A stretch of 32,756 bases of DNA from Bacillota bacterium (GTDB lineage: Bacteria; Sysuimicrobiota; Sysuimicrobiia; Sysuimicrobiales; Segetimicrobiaceae). The translations under genes were made by a program, and so were the position numbers. This document shows positions 26,042 to 32,756 of this stretch, piece after piece. Under the pieces are notes generated by a model that was given only the letters and a program-made list of their open reading frames with translations, did no database searches and was not told the DNA's origin. Every line of letters begins with the position of its first letter. Position 1 is the stretch's first letter. The DNA is taken from positions 1-32,756 of the forward strand of contig JAJPJL010000089.1 of NCBI GenBank assembly GCA_021324255.1, given 5' to 3'.

Positions 26042-26770
26042 ATGGCTGACCAGGCAGCCGCGCATTCGTACGCCCCGGAATATCCGTGGTGGCTCCAGCC
26101 CGTCGCAACGGTCGTCATCTTGAGCGCGTTCGCCCTGTATTCGATCTGGGTCGCACTCCAGGGGCGCGGCTACGCGGCGCCATACCTGTCGCCGTTCTAC
26201 TCGCCGCCCGTGCGCGTGGGCGGGATCCCGATCTCGCCGGCGTGGTGGGTCGTGTGGGTGCCGGCGGGCTTCCGGGCGACCTGTTACTACTACCGCAAGG
26301 CGTATTACCGATCGTTCTTCCGCGATCCGGTCTCGTGCATGATCGGCGAGTCACGGCGGCGCTACGCGGGCGAGACCGCGTTCCCGTTCATCCTCAACAA
26401 CCTGCACCGGTTTCTCCTGTATCTCGCCATCATCGTGCTCGCGTTTCTCTGGCGCGATACGGTCGCGGCGTTCTTCTTCGACGGCCGGTTCGGGGTCCAT
26501 CTCGGCTCGCTCTTGTTCCTCGTCAACGTCGTGCTCCTCACCGGTTACACGGTCGGGTGCCACGCATTCAGGCACATGGTCGGGGGCAATCTCGACTGCT
26601 ATTCGTGCGCCCGGGGCGGCCGCGTCCGCTACCGCCTCTGGCAGTGGGTCAATCCATTCAACCACCGGCACGCGCCGTGGGCGTGGGCGAGCCTGTTTTC
26701 GGTCGCGGCCGCCGACGTCTACGTACGCTTGCTCATGGCCGGGGTGATCTCGGATCCGAAGCTGTTCTAA
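26042..26770 (+). CDS. Succinate dehydrogenase membrane anchor, mycobacterial Sdh1-like
   Basis: A 242-residue integral membrane protein with about five hydrophobic segments (roughly 18-39, 65-78, 117-137, 153-172, 211-233). It precedes sdhA and sdhB. The C-terminal half, GCHAFRHMVGGNLDCYSC (172-189), RVRYRLWQWVNPFNHRHAPWAW and ADVYVRLLMAG, resembles the single large anchor of mycobacterial Sdh1-type complexes rather than the usual SdhC/SdhD pair. Conserved-looking cysteines and histidines are C81, C99, H122, C173, H174, H178, C186, C189, H208 and H210. Some Sdh1-type anchors have been reported to hold a membrane-embedded Rieske-type cluster, and these residues are candidate ligands here. Its likely job is quinone reduction and anchoring of SdhAB; the resemblance is from memory, not from a search. 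Confidence 0.72.
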   Translation: MADQAAAHSYAPEYPWWLQPVATVVILSAFALYSIWVALQGRGYAAPYLSPFYSPPVRVGGIPISPAWWVVWVPAGFRATCYYYRKAYYRSFFRDPVSCMIGESRRRYAGETAFPFILNNLHRFLLYLAIIVLAFLWRDTVAAFFFDGRFGVHLGSLLFLVNVVLLTGYTVGCHAFRHMVGGNLDCYSCARGGRVRYRLWQWVNPFNHRHAPWAWASLFSVAAADVYVRLLMAGVISDPKLF

Positions 26771-27114
26771 CGCGGCGTCGCTCATGTGCGACAAGAGGAG
26801 AAGGGGCCGAGCGGCCGGACGTCCCTGCTCACGCCGTAGAGAGCGGGCGTTGGTCTCGGCCCTCATGAAATCCAATCCAGCGAGGGCCTCGACCCCTCCG
26901 GCGGCTGTGGCCGCCTCCGGTCGACGCCGGCGATGGCTATATGTGGGTGGCCTCACCCTACATGCGCTGCTGACGAACCGAATAGACGGATGTGTGAGGC
27001 GTCGTGCGTGGAGCGGAGGTCAGGTCTGCCTGGCTCCAACGCTTGCGGAAATACCGCAACGGTGCACGAGCGCTGCGCGGCGGTGCCGCACCGCGAGGGG
27101 GAGGGTGCGTCCGG
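26771..27114 (+). other. Intergenic region between the Sdh anchor and sdhA
   Basis: A 344-bp gap with no convincing gene; the open frames are Arg-rich and lack ribosome sites or family features. It is noticeably less GC-rich in the middle (26930-27000). A small hairpin, TTGCGG/CCGCAA around an AAATA loop (27043-27059), sits about 37 bp before the sdhA ribosome site. A GGCGGC/GGCCGCC-type inverted repeat lies near 26898-26913. I cannot name a promoter with confidence. Confidence 0.5.
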
Positions 27115-28836
27115 GTGGCTGACTGGTACGAAGCCCGCCGGTACGATGTGCTGGTCGTCGGCGCGGGGGGCGCGGGCCTGCGCGCGGCAATCGCCGCCGC
27201 CGAGGCCGGCGTCAAGGTCGGCCTCGTCTGCAAGTCGCTGCTCGGCAAGGCGCACACGGTGATGGCCGAGGGGGGGATCGCCGCCGCCCTCGGCAACGTC
27301 GATGCCAAGGACAGCTGGGAAGTGCACTTTGCGGACACGATGCGCGGCGGGCAGCGAATCAACGACTACCGGATGGTCGAGATCTTCGCCAAGGAAGCGC
27401 CCGAGCGGGTCTACGAGCTGGAGCGCTGGGGCGGGCTGTTCGACCGGACGCCCGACGGCAAGATCTTGCAGCGGCCGTTCGGCGCGCACACCTACCGGCG
27501 GCTCTGCCACGTCGGCGATCGCACGGGGCTGGAGCTGATCCGGACGCTCCAGGATCGCGCGGTGCACAGCGGGGTCGAGGTCCTGATGGAGGTGACGCTC
27601 AGCCGGTTGCTCAAGGACGGCGACCGCGTCGCCGGCGCGTTCGGCTACCGCCGGGAGGACGGGCGGTTTATCGTGATCGGCGCCAAGGCCGTCATCCTCG
27701 CCACGGGCGGCTGGGGAAAGGTTTACAAGGTGACCAGCAACTCCTGGGAGTGCACCGGCGACGGCTGCGCCATGGCGTACGAGGCCGGCGCCGAGCTCAT
27801 GGACATGGAAATGGTGCAGTTCCACCCCACGGGCATGGTGTGGCCGCCCGGCGTGCGCGGCATCCTCGTGACCGAGGCGGTGCGGGGGGAGGGCGGCATT
27901 CTCCGCAACGCGAAGGGCGAGCGCTTCATGCAGGCGTACGATCCGAAGAAGCTCGAGCTCAGCAGCCGGGACGTGGTCTCCCGGTCCATCTATAAGGAAG
28001 TCGAGGCCGGGCGCGGAAGCCCGCACGGCGGCGCGTTCCTCGACATCTCGCACCGCGGAGCGGAGTACATCAAAAAGAAGCTCCCCAGCATGTACGAGCA
28101 GTTTCTCAAGCTCGCCGACGTGGACATTACGAAGGGACCGATGGAGGTCGCGCCCACGATTCACTACGTCATGGGCGGCGTGCGGGTCGCGCCGGGCGAG
28201 GGCGCCTCCACCGTTCCCGGACTGTTCGCGGCCGGCGAGGTGGCCGCGGGGTTGCACGGGGCCAACCGGCTCGGCGGCAACTCGCTCAGCGACCTCGTCG
28301 TGTTCGGCAAGCGGGCCGGCGAACACGCCGCGCGCTATGTCAAGGGCCTGGACCGCGCTCCCCGCATCGACGACGGCCAGGCGGACGAGGAGCGGCGGCT
28401 GCTGCTGCGGCCCTTCGACTCCGGCAACACCGAAAATCCCTACGAGCTGCACGCCGACCTGCAGGAGGTCATGGGCACCCACGCCGGCATCGCCCGGACC
28501 GGCGACGGGCTGCGCGCCGGCCTGGATAAGATCCTGAGCCTGCAGGAGCGGGCGGAGCGCATGCGCGCGGCCGGCTCGCCGCTGTACAATCCCGGCTGGC
28601 ACGCCTGCCGGGACGTGCGCTTCATGCTGACCCTGTGCGAGGCCATCCTGCGCTCCGCGATCGAGCGAACCGAGAGCCGCGGCGCGCACTGGCGCCTCGA
28701 CTTCCCTGATCAGGACGCGGGGTGGGGGCGCAAGAACCTGGTGGTGCGGCGCGGCGACGCCGGCATGACGGTCTCGACGCGTCCCGTGCCCGAGATGCCG
28801 TCCGGGCTCGCGCGGCTGCTCGAGGCAACGGCATGA
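27115..28836 (+). CDS. sdhA: Succinate dehydrogenase / fumarate reductase flavoprotein subunit
   Basis: A 573-residue FAD subunit that oxidises succinate to fumarate. The dinucleotide-binding motif is YDVLVVGAGGAGLRAAIAAAEAG (10-32, two segments); the covalent-FAD histidine is H47 in GKAHTVMAEGG. Further signatures are QRPFGAHTYRRLCHVGDRTG, AVILATGGWGKVY, the catalytic region MVQFHPTGMVWPPG with VTEAVRGEGGIL, APTIHYVMGGVRV, and LFAAGEVAAGLHGANRLGGNSLSD. GTG at 27115 is chosen because GGGGGAGGG ends nine bases upstream; the frame is open to 27004 but that part is Arg/Gly-rich. SdhA rather than fumarate reductase is inferred from the TCA neighbours. It is followed by sdhB after 13 bp. Confidence 0.95.
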   Translation: MADWYEARRYDVLVVGAGGAGLRAAIAAAEAGVKVGLVCKSLLGKAHTVMAEGGIAAALGNVDAKDSWEVHFADTMRGGQRINDYRMVEIFAKEAPERVYELERWGGLFDRTPDGKILQRPFGAHTYRRLCHVGDRTGLELIRTLQDRAVHSGVEVLMEVTLSRLLKDGDRVAGAFGYRREDGRFIVIGAKAVILATGGWGKVYKVTSNSWECTGDGCAMAYEAGAELMDMEMVQFHPTGMVWPPGVRGILVTEAVRGEGGILRNAKGERFMQAYDPKKLELSSRDVVSRSIYKEVEAGRGSPHGGAFLDISHRGAEYIKKKLPSMYEQFLKLADVDITKGPMEVAPTIHYVMGGVRVAPGEGASTVPGLFAAGEVAAGLHGANRLGGNSLSDLVVFGKRAGEHAARYVKGLDRAPRIDDGQADEERRLLLRPFDSGNTENPYELHADLQEVMGTHAGIARTGDGLRAGLDKILSLQERAERMRAAGSPLYNPGWHACRDVRFMLTLCEAILRSAIERTESRGAHWRLDFPDQDAGWGRKNLVVRRGDAGMTVSTRPVPEMPSGLARLLEATA

Positions 28837-28849
28837 GATGGGGGCGGCC

Positions 28850-29602
28850 ATGACCGAGGCGACGCTGCACGTCTTCCGGGGCGACAAGACGGGCGGTGAG
28901 CTGCGCCCGTATCAGGTGCCGCTCACCGAGGGCATGGTCGTGCTCGACGCCATCCATTACATCCAGCAGCACGAGGACGCCACGCTCGCGTGCCGGTGGA
29001 ACTGCAAGGCGGCGAAGTGCGGCTCCTGCGGCGCCGAGGTCAACGGCAAGCCCCGGTTGATGTGCAAGACGCGGCTCGACCAGTTCAAGGGGCACCCCGT
29101 GACGGTGCGGCCGCTCGCGGCGTTCCCCTTGATCAAAGACCTGGTCACCGATGTGTCGTGGAACTATCGGGTGAACCAGGAGATCCCGCCGTTCACGCCC
29201 GCCCGGGACGACACGGGCCCCTGGCGCATGTACCCGGAAGACGTGGACCGGATGTTCGAGTTTCGCAGGTGCATCGAGTGCTTCCTGTGCCAGGACGTGT
29301 GCCACGTGCTTCGCGAGCACGACGGCACGTCGCGGTATTACGGACCGCGCTTCATGGTCCGCATCGCCGGGCTGGAGATGCATCCCAAGGACACCGTGTC
29401 GCGCGCGCACCTGCTGCGGGGGCGCGGCGGCATCGGCTTCTGCAACATCACGAAGTGCTGCGAGGAGGTCTGCCCCGAGGAGATTCACATTACGGACAAC
29501 GCCATCATCCCCCTCAAGGAGCGCGTCGCGGACGAGTACTTCGACCCGTGGCGCGCGCTCCTGCGCGCGTTCGGCGGGCGCAGGGAGCCGCGGGGGACCT
29601 GA
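28850..29602 (+). CDS. sdhB: Succinate dehydrogenase / fumarate reductase iron-sulfur subunit
   Basis: A 250-residue electron-transfer subunit with three clusters. The 2Fe-2S ligands are C52, C57, C60 and C72 ([14 protein letters not shown]...LMC). The 4Fe-4S cluster uses C141, C144 and C147 of [11 protein letters not shown] plus C208. The 3Fe-4S cluster uses C151, C198 and C204. The spacings of the last six cysteines (47, 6 and 4 residues apart at the C-terminal side) are the same as in well-studied SdhB proteins, so all clusters should form. ATG at 28850 has GGGGGCGG just upstream; an in-frame ATG at 28838 would add four residues. Encoded 13 bp after sdhA, passing electrons from FAD to the anchor encoded at 26042. 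Confidence 0.95.
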
Positions 29603-29666: not shown

Positions 29667-30911
29667 ATGCCGACGTTCGACTCGCTGACCCCGCCCACGG
29701 ACGGCGCCGCGATCGAGATCCGCGACAATGCGCTGCACGTGCCCGCCACGCCGATCATCCCGTACATCGAGGGCGATGGGACCGGGCCGGACATCTGGAA
29801 GGCCACCGTGCGCGTGCTCGACGCGGCGGTGGCCAAGGCGTACGGGACCAAGCGCCGGATCGTGTGGTTCGAGGTCTTCGCCGGGGAGAAGGCGTTTCAC
29901 CGGTTCACCACGTGGCTGCCCGAGGACACGCTGCGGGCGTTTTCGCACTACGTCGTTGGGATCAAGGGGCCGCTCACGACACCGGTCGGCGGGGGCATCC
30001 GCAGCCTGAACGTCGCGCTACGGCAGCTCCTCGACCTCTACGCCTGCGTGCGGCCCGTGCGGCACTTCGTCAACGTGCCCAGCCCGGTGCGGCGTCCCGA
30101 GGACGTGGATCTCGTCATCTTCCGCGAAAACAGCGAGGACATCTACGTCGGGTACGAGTTCGCGAGCGGGACCCCCGAGGCGAAGCGGCTGATCGAGTTC
30201 GTGAATGCGGAATTCAAGTGGAGCGTCCGCCCCGACTCCGGCGTCGGGCTCAAGCCGATGAGCCCGTTTGGGAGCAAGCGCCTCGTGCGGAAGGCGATCC
30301 AGTACGCGATCGACCGCAAGCGCAAGAGCGTCACCCTGGTCCACAAGGGCAATATCATGAAGTACACGGAGGGGGCCTTCAAGGACTGGGGGTACGCGCT
30401 CGCGCGCGAGGAGTTTGGCGACGTCACGATCTCCTGGGACGAGGTCGAGCGCAAGCACGACGGCGTGGTCCCGCCCGGCAAGATTGTGATCCAAGACTAC
30501 ATCGCTGACGTGACGTTTCAGCACGTGCTCACGCGGCCGAAATCGTTCGACGTGATCGCGACCGGCAACCTCAACGGCGACTACCTGTCCGACGCCGTCG
30601 CGGCGCAGGTCGGCGGGATCGGCATGGCGCCGGGCGGCAACCTGAGCGACTTTCACGCGGTGTTCGAGGCCACACACGGGACCGCGCCGAAGTACGCGAA
30701 CCAGGACAAGGTCAACCCCGGCTCGCTCATTCTTTCGGGGGTCATGATGCTCGAGCACCTCGGATGGTCCGAGGCGGCGGAGACGGTCGTGCGCGGCCTC
30801 GAGGCGGCGTTCCGCAAGAAGATCGTCACGTACGATCTCGCGCGGTTGATGTCCGGCGCCCGCGAGGTGCGCACGAGCGAGTTTGCGACCGCGGTCATCG
30901 AGGAATTCTAG
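29667..30911 (+). CDS. icd: Isocitrate dehydrogenase, NADP-dependent
   Basis: A 414-residue enzyme oxidising and decarboxylating isocitrate to 2-oxoglutarate. [16 protein letters not shown] opens the Rossmann-like domain. [25 protein letters not shown] holds the substrate-binding Ser (S113, the residue phosphorylated in the E. coli enzyme) and Arg residues. [32 protein letters not shown] and [22 protein letters not shown] follow. The cofactor site [17 protein letters not shown] has the Lys-Tyr pair typical of NADP-specific enzymes. It starts at ATG with GAGGAG upstream, 64 bp after sdhB. Full length and apparently intact. Confidence 0.95.
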
Positions 30912-30974: not shown

Positions 30975-31919
30975 GTGGTCGTGAAACGGCCGAAGGTCAG
31001 CATCGTGGGAACCGGGAACGTCGGCCACTCGGCGGCCCAGTGGCTCGTGTCGCGGCGGGTCGCGGACGTGGTGCTCGTCGACGTGATCGAGGGCATGCCG
31101 CAGGGCAAGGCCCTCGATCTGGCGCAGGCGGGCCCCATCGAGGGGTTCGACCTCGCGGTCACCGGGACGAACGACTACGACGACACCGCGGGCTCCGACG
31201 TGGTCGTCATCGTGGCCGGCGTCGCCCGCAAGCCGGGCATGAGCCGCGAGGACCTGCTGCACACGAACGCCGGCATCGTCACCGCCGTCACGCGGGAGGT
31301 GGCCCGGCGGTCTCCCGCGGCGCGTCTCATCGTCGTGACCAATCCGCTCGACGTGATGGTCTACCTGGCGTACCAGGCCAGCGGGTTCCCCGCGGCGCGG
31401 GTCATGGGGCAGAGCGGGGCGCTCGACAGCACCCGCTTCCGGACGTTCATCGCGCGCGAGCTCGGCGTCTCGGTGCGCGACGTGGCCGCGCTGGTGATCG
31501 GCGCGCACAGCGACACGCACATGGTGCCCCTCCCGAGCCTCGCCACGGTGGGCGGGATCCCCCTGCGGCTGCTGCTGCCGCCGGAGCGGATCGCCGCGCT
31601 CGTCGAGCGGACGCGCCGGGGCGGAGCGGAGATCGTGGGGTTGCTCAAGACCGGCAGCGCGTTCTTCGCGCCCGGGGCGGCGATCTGCGAGATGGTCGAG
31701 GCGATCCTCCAGGACCGCAAGCGGGTGATCCCGGTGTCGGCGTACCTCACCGGACAGTACGGCGTCCGCGACCTGTACGTCGGGGTGCCGGCGCTCCTCG
31801 GCGCCGGCGGCGTGGAGCGCATCTTCGAGATCCCGCTCGAGGGTGCGGAGCGGGCCGCGTTTGACGCCGCGGTGGCCAGCATCCGGGAGAACGTCGCGCT
31901 CGCCGGCGTGAAAGGGTAG
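30975..31919 (+). CDS. mdh: Malate dehydrogenase, LDH-like NAD type
   Basis: A 314-residue enzyme oxidising malate to oxaloacetate. The NAD motif is VSIVGTGNVGHSAAQWL, with the acidic D36 in VVLVDVIEG. R85 and R91 in GVARKPGMSREDLL mark malate rather than lactate specificity. VVTNPLDVMVYLAYQASGF, GQSGALDSTRFRTFIA (D151, R154) and the catalytic H178 in VIGAHSDTHMVPLPS follow. The catalytic loop has one extra residue compared with the usual G-x-H-G-D-x-M-V-P pattern. AAAGGAG lies six bases before the GTG start. It is 63 bp after icd and four bp before sucC. Confidence 0.94.
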   Translation: MVVKRPKVSIVGTGNVGHSAAQWLVSRRVADVVLVDVIEGMPQGKALDLAQAGPIEGFDLAVTGTNDYDDTAGSDVVVIVAGVARKPGMSREDLLHTNAGIVTAVTREVARRSPAARLIVVTNPLDVMVYLAYQASGFPAARVMGQSGALDSTRFRTFIARELGVSVRDVAALVIGAHSDTHMVPLPSLATVGGIPLRLLLPPERIAALVERTRRGGAEIVGLLKTGSAFFAPGAAICEMVEAILQDRKRVIPVSAYLTGQYGVRDLYVGVPALLGAGGVERIFEIPLEGAERAAFDAAVASIRENVALAGVKG

Positions 31920-31923
31920 GCGG

Positions 31924-32756
31924 ATGAAGCTCCACGAGTACCAGGCCAAGGAGTACTTCGCCCGCTACGGCCTCCCGGTGCAGACGGGCGTGGTGATCGA
32001 CCGCGCGGAGCAGATCGCGGGACTGGCGCTGCGCTATCCGGTCGTGATCAAGGCGCAGGTGCTCGTCGGCGGGCGCGGCAAGGCGGGCGGCGTGCAACTG
32101 GCCGCGACGCCCGAGGACGCGCAGGAACGCGCCCGCGTGATCCTCGGGATGGACATCAAGGGCGAGCGCGTGGCGCGCGTGCTGGTGGCGGAGGCCGCCG
32201 ACATCGAGCGCGAATACTACCTGGCGTTCGTCACGGACCGCGCCGCGGGCCGGGTCGCCGCGATCGCGTCCGGGGAGGGCGGCGTGGAGATCGAGGCCGT
32301 GGCCCGCACGGCCCCGGACAAGCTCGTCCGCGCCGAGGCCGATCCCTTCCTCGGGTTTCCGGCGTATCAGGCGCGGGTCGTGGGGCGCCGCCTCGGCTTC
32401 GCCGGCAGTGTGCTCGAGGAGTTCGTGCGGATCGCCACCGCGCTGTATCGCCTGTACTGGACGGAGGACGAGGATCTCGCGGAGATCAACCCGCTCGCCC
32501 TCGTGGGCGGCCGCCTGCTGTGCGTCGACGCCAAGCTGGTGCTCGACGACAACGCGCTGTACCGGCACGCCGAGGCGCCGCCGAGCGAGGAGCTGACCCA
32601 GTTGGAAGCCGCGGCCCGGCGCGCCGGCCTCGCGTACGTCGAGCTGGACGGCGACATCGCCGTGATCGGCAACGGCGCGGGCCTCGTGATGAGCACTCTC
32701 GACCTGCTCGCGCACTTCGGCGGGCGGGCGGCCAACTTCCTCGACGTCGGCGGGGG
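31924..32756 (+). CDS. sucC: Succinyl-CoA synthetase beta subunit, right-edge partial
   Basis: The first 277 residues of a protein that normally has about 380-390; the gene continues past the window. MKLHEYQAKEYFARYGLPVQTG is the standard front of the ATP-grasp domain. VVIKAQVLVGGRGKAGGVQLA, the nucleotide-binding Glu region, EEFVRIATALYRLYWTEDEDLAEINPLAL (metal-binding Glu-Asn) and CVDAKLVLDDNALYRH are in order, ending in the start of the C-terminal domain (NFLDVGGG). It makes succinate and a nucleoside triphosphate from succinyl-CoA together with SucD, which would be expected just downstream. It starts four bp after the mdh stop, so the two are co-transcribed. Confidence 0.96.
   Translation, partial: MKLHEYQAKEYFARYGLPVQTGVVIDRAEQIAGLALRYPVVIKAQVLVGGRGKAGGVQLAATPEDAQERARVILGMDIKGERVARVLVAEAADIEREYYLAFVTDRAAGRVAAIASGEGGVEIEAVARTAPDKLVRAEADPFLGFPAYQARVVGRRLGFAGSVLEEFVRIATALYRLYWTEDEDLAEINPLALVGGRLLCVDAKLVLDDNALYRHAEAPPSEELTQLEAAARRAGLAYVELDGDIAVIGNGAGLVMSTLDLLAHFGGRAANFLDVGG

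Follow-up and report, generated by a model that had tools for sequence, protein, structure and literature searches.

The window analyzed here is the whole stretch of 32,756 nucleotides, and all of its features described below lie on the forward (+) strand. An open reading frame at positions 26042 to 26770, beginning with an ATG at 26042 and closing with a TAA stop codon at 26768-26770, encodes a product of 242 amino acids. This gene was assigned as sdhC of the class F type, a membrane anchor and candidate host of a membrane-embedded Rieske-type [2Fe-2S] cluster, using a phmmer search, the predicted fold, and conservation among 98 homologues. It is followed by sdhA (27115 to 28836), an Sdh1-type flavoprotein subunit gene with a GTG start whose open frame reaches upstream to 27004, and by sdhB (28838 to 29602), which encodes an Sdh1-type iron-sulfur subunit. 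Downstream lie icd (isocitrate dehydrogenase, 29667 to 30911; PF00180, 291.5 bits), mdh (malate dehydrogenase, 30975 to 31919; PF00056 and PF02866), and sucC (succinyl-CoA synthetase beta, 31924 to 32754; PF08442, 196.9 bits), the last an open frame truncated by the end of the window, such that anchor, sdhA, sdhB, icd, mdh, and sucC form a same-strand cluster of TCA-cycle genes. The first-pass annotation of this DNA had described one 242-residue membrane protein ahead of sdhA and sdhB, and the reading frame was indeed found at that place and on the same strand as its partners. No second small SdhD-like gene was observed in the anchor-sdhA-sdhB locus. The order of anchor followed by sdhA was recovered in 91 of the 98 homologous loci with the spacing cut of the script used; in four more the spacing was zero or slightly negative, and two others end at a contig edge.

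The gap between anchor and sdhA measures about 345 bp in the window, as against 100 bp or less in 94 other measured loci, and this extra length is accounted for by a dispersed repeat of approximately 300 bp (26767 to 27072, ends approximate). The nearest relative (L002), whose anchor is 96% identical, has a gap of 48 bp and an empty site. Twelve matches to the repeat were found in the window genome and 47 in a sister genome (G026). Copies start near CTAGTGC and finish near GCACTAG, ends which form a short inverted repeat at the termini and vary between copies, and the middle is missing from some of them; the insert looks like a MITE. Its left end overlaps the stop codon of the anchor gene (C-TAA-CGC). 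A search of the insert region against Rfam returned no match up to an E-value of 0.1, and RNA folding gave z-scores of -1.6 for one strand and -2.8 for the other, which is not compelling.

When the anchor was searched against Pfam and NCBIfam no family was matched, and its identification was therefore carried by the search of solved structures. With phmmer, residues 15-240 matched chain 7d6v_C, the anchor of Mycobacterium smegmatis Sdh1, with an E-value of 3e-42. An AlphaFold2 model built from 74 aligned homologues had a mean pLDDT of 86.5 and a pTM of 0.84, with lower values (mean pLDDT 62-67) in residues 91-120, the segment which includes C99; this model superseded an earlier run with 17 close relatives, in which pLDDT was 69 and the region 84-112 fell below 50. 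Foldseek with the anchor model gave 7d6v_C as the sole match under an E-value of 0.001 (E 1.7e-13, TM 0.82/0.76), and a second structural aligner placed 230 residues on the same chain with a Z-score of 24.8 and an rmsd of 3.6, the next row having a Z-score of 6.1. The helices predicted by the model (18-40, 67-79/82-92, 116-142, 154-171/174-180, 193-208, and 210-233) are compatible with a count of six. The resemblance to the mycobacterial Sdh1 anchor which had been suggested from the first reading is borne out by these matches; it had been placed in the C-terminal half of the protein, and that restriction falls away as similarity spans residues 15-240.

The partner subunits gave the same assignment. 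The best PDB chain for SdhA was 7d6v_A (1.7e-193), well ahead of the complex II ranked second (3e-109), and the protein scored 861.6 bits against the NCBIfam equivalog NF005866 (curated cut-off 819). For SdhB the best chain was 7d6v_B at 1.5e-92, with the next complex II at 2e-23, and the NCBIfam equivalog NF009052 was matched at 371.8 bits (curated cut-off 256); cysteine motifs for [2Fe-2S], [4Fe-4S], and [3Fe-4S] clusters are present in this subunit. From the homology of SdhA, SdhB, and the anchor to the Sdh1 chains it follows that all three belong to the Sdh1 type, which is class F. Class F complex II is defined by a single six-helix anchor together with an integral-membrane Rieske cluster, with 7D6V as the exemplar (PMC10238741).

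Two other types of complex II were considered for the anchor. In most complex II anchors haem is bound through histidines, and as H122, H174, H178, and H210 are conserved here, the protein might be an anchor of the haem type (class A-D complex II), with haem b bound by these histidines and no particular role for the cysteines. Against this, the anchor has no match to Sdh_cyt (PF01127) or to any other Pfam family, the Sdh_cyt matches of the genome are confined to another locus on contig C72, three cysteines are invariant in the 98 homologues, and a Rieske-type anchor is the sole significant fold match, all of which makes a haem-type anchor highly improbable. A class E complex II, with CCG-domain, amphipathic anchors, was rejected since there is no Pfam match and the model shows long hydrophobic helices packed in a bundle. 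On this evidence we conclude with high confidence that SdhC, SdhA, and SdhB of this locus make up a class F (Sdh1-type) succinate:quinone oxidoreductase, whose anchor is predicted to hold a Rieske-type [2Fe-2S] cluster.

Conservation of cysteine and histidine residues was assessed in the 98 homologues. C81, C99, H122, C173, and H210 are invariant (98/98), H174 and H178 are each found in 96 of the 98, and all seven have the identical residue in M. smegmatis SdhC. The homologue set was partly gathered with patterns around CYYxRKxY and CHxxRHxxG and so is biased towards both motifs; neither pattern covers C99, H122, or H210. The codons of C81 (26282-26284), C99 (26336-26338), H122 (26405-26407), and H210 (26669-26671) align with chain residues 114, 132, 155, and 240 of 7d6v_C, respectively, while the motif C173-H174-A-F-R-H178 (26558-26575) corresponds to CHSCRH in M. 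smegmatis. C81 lies at the break between model helices 67-79 and 82-92, and C173 and H210 are likewise at or beside helix breaks. The first-pass annotation had named C81, C99, C173, H174, H178, C186, C189, H208, and H210 as a possible cluster, and every one of these residues is present at the number given. Conservation upholds C81, C99, C173, H174, H178, and H210. It does not extend to C186 (59/98), C189 (53/98), or H208 (10/98), none of which is present in the solved structure 7d6v, and the invariant H122 had been left out of the list.

A Rieske cluster requires two cysteines and two histidines, and the four ligands should therefore be among C81, C99, H122, C173, H174, H178, and H210, a set which, as read from the alignment, offers enough of both (three cysteines and four histidines). 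Mean numbers of lysine plus arginine were 5.5 in loop 84-112 and 4.1 in loop 172-200, compared with 0.9 and 0.7 in the opposite loops. Given this positive charge, the loops which carry the conserved residues are expected to point towards the cytoplasm, the side on which SdhB docks, and such a placement would be consistent with electrons being relayed from the clusters of SdhB. Natural variants of the CH..RH histidines were also observed, with H174 replaced by asparagine in loci L035 and L041 and H178 by serine or tyrosine in L047 and L055. These variants could help to tell which histidines are ligands: with two homologues lacking H174 and two lacking H178, either these residues are non-ligands or some members of the class do without the cluster.

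At position 176 the window anchor has a phenylalanine where M. smegmatis has a cysteine, and this substitution might be taken to indicate that the fold has been kept in this lineage while the cofactor was lost, electrons passing from the [3Fe-4S] cluster of SdhB directly to quinone. The seven conserved cysteines and histidines are intact in the window anchor and in every aligned relative of its family, and position 176 is occupied by phenylalanine, leucine, or cysteine across the wider set, so that a cysteine is not required there. Loss of the cluster is accordingly judged very unlikely, and an anchor which holds a Rieske-type cluster is the reading retained below.

Members of the window's family read CHAFRH...LDC[FY]SC, with one member reading CHACRH; in mycobacteria and Streptomyces the motif is CHSCRH and the later cysteine pair is missing. 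In the window this pair is C186-Y-S-C189 (26597-26608), which in the homologue alignment lies outside the universal set. Many phyla contain class F anchors with the LDC[FY]SC motif, which together make up a large subgroup (among loci L020-L098). As an addition to, and not in place of, the class F reading, C186 and C189 might form an extra metal site or a redox-active disulfide, perhaps together with the CH..RH motif. In favour of such a site the motif is found in roughly half of the homologues gathered and in several phyla, but it is missing from the other half, M. smegmatis included. The mutual exclusion of C176 and C186/C189, which has a Fisher p of 4e-5 when treated as a table, was considered as evidence of a shared site and set aside, as only about four changes of C176 occur on the tree; the pattern follows the tree and is a subgroup marker, giving no independent support for a second site. 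An extra site of this kind is thus unlikely, and it is equally doubtful that the LDC[FY]SC subgroup has added a metal or redox site which is absent from the solved structure and which would reroute the electrons or act as a redox switch.

For the class F enzyme, the path of electrons may be proposed as follows. Succinate would be oxidised at the FAD of SdhA, and electrons would then cross the three iron-sulfur clusters of SdhB, in the order [2Fe-2S], [4Fe-4S], and [3Fe-4S]. From the [3Fe-4S] cluster they would move to the Rieske-type [2Fe-2S] cluster in the membrane anchor and from there to quinone in the membrane, the anchor taking the place of the customary SdhC/SdhD pair with its haem. As the genome has menA, with two matches over the cut-off, menaquinone is the most likely acceptor. 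In the M. smegmatis enzyme, Zhou et al. 2021 reportedly abolished quinone reduction by changing two histidine ligands to alanine. That the cluster is present, which four of the seven residues bind it, the catalytic direction, and the identity of the quinone are all inferred from homology.

The distribution of the class was examined by scanning a genome collection with a 17-sequence alignment, which confirmed at least 578 relatives. The best 80 of these represent roughly 15 phyla and include Actinomycetota, Acidobacteriota, Chloroflexota, Dormibacterota, Myxococcota, other deltaproteobacterial bins, Rokubacteria, Binatota, Gemmatimonadota, Planctomycetota, Deinococcota (Meiothermus), Melainabacteria, Bipolaricaulota, and Bacillota, as well as single bins labelled Chlamydiota and Oligoflexia. 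Many of these come from metagenome bins that may be mislabelled, but Meiothermus, Streptomyces, and Edaphobacter have been grown in culture. Within the window's own phylum a class F anchor was found in 17 of 43 genomes, including all 12 of its family, the 11 other family genomes carrying anchors at 70-96% identity. It had been proposed at the outset that this bacterium has an unusual class of succinate dehydrogenase outside mycobacteria; the class holds good, but with at least 578 relatives, the best 80 of them from roughly 15 phyla, the description as unusual does not, and class F succinate dehydrogenase outside mycobacteria is ordinary and already common in many bacterial phyla. Separate acquisition within the order was considered because the anchors there occupy two parts of the tree, but a single clade is not rejected by an AU test (p 0.41), and no transfer is claimed. 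One genome of the window's family (G033) has two class F anchors, L005 and L018, which are 77% and 74% identical to that of the window, and two distinct class F anchors (L037 and L039) likewise occur in one Bacillota-labelled bin (JAJZZI01).

Class F succinate dehydrogenase has one solved structure, and most discussion of it concerns its use as a drug target in mycobacteria. The present set of homologues puts the class in roughly 15 phyla and narrows the candidate ligands to seven, and it shows that CHSCRH, the mycobacterial motif, can do without its second cysteine. The ligand set is testable in cultured non-pathogens, for example Meiothermus, Streptomyces, or Edaphobacter.

With respect to known systems, the anchor-sdhAB set is a sound new member of an already known class, its cofactor and exact ligands being predicted by homology. 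M. smegmatis Sdh1 (7D6V, 7D6X; MSMEG_0417-0420) likewise has one anchor with SdhA and SdhB in the order anchor-sdhA-sdhB, and it shares with the window three subunits homologous over nearly their full length, the seven cysteines and histidines, and the predicted fold. It differs in that the window anchor has F176 in place of the second cysteine of CHSCRH and adds C186-x-x-C189, in that a repeat element splits the anchor from sdhA in the window, and in that the two organisms belong to different phyla, with an anchor identity of 36-39%. Closer are the LDC[FY]SC class F anchors of Acidobacteriota, Chloroflexota, Dormibacterota, Melainabacteria, Gemmatimonadota, and others, which at up to 58% identity are the nearest outside the window's own phylum, and which share the cysteine and histidine set, C186 and often C189, and the gene order; this group has no named family in Pfam or NCBIfam and no studied member in the literature examined. 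Class A complex II, as in M. smegmatis Sdh2 (6LUM), and other haem-type enzymes have SdhA and SdhB subunits homologous to those of the window, although SdhB matches 6LUM at only 4e-19 compared with 1.5e-92 for 7d6v_B, and their anchors are unrelated by sequence (no Sdh_cyt match). A haem-type enzyme is encoded elsewhere in the window genome, where contig C72 (L103:3482-6814) carries sdhA and sdhB together with one gene for a 287-aa protein in which two Sdh_cyt domains are joined, an apparent SdhD-SdhC fusion, adjoining fumarase-like genes. M. smegmatis has both Sdh1 and Sdh2 (PMC12713383), and the window genome resembles it in holding class F and haem-type complex II together, with menA also present.
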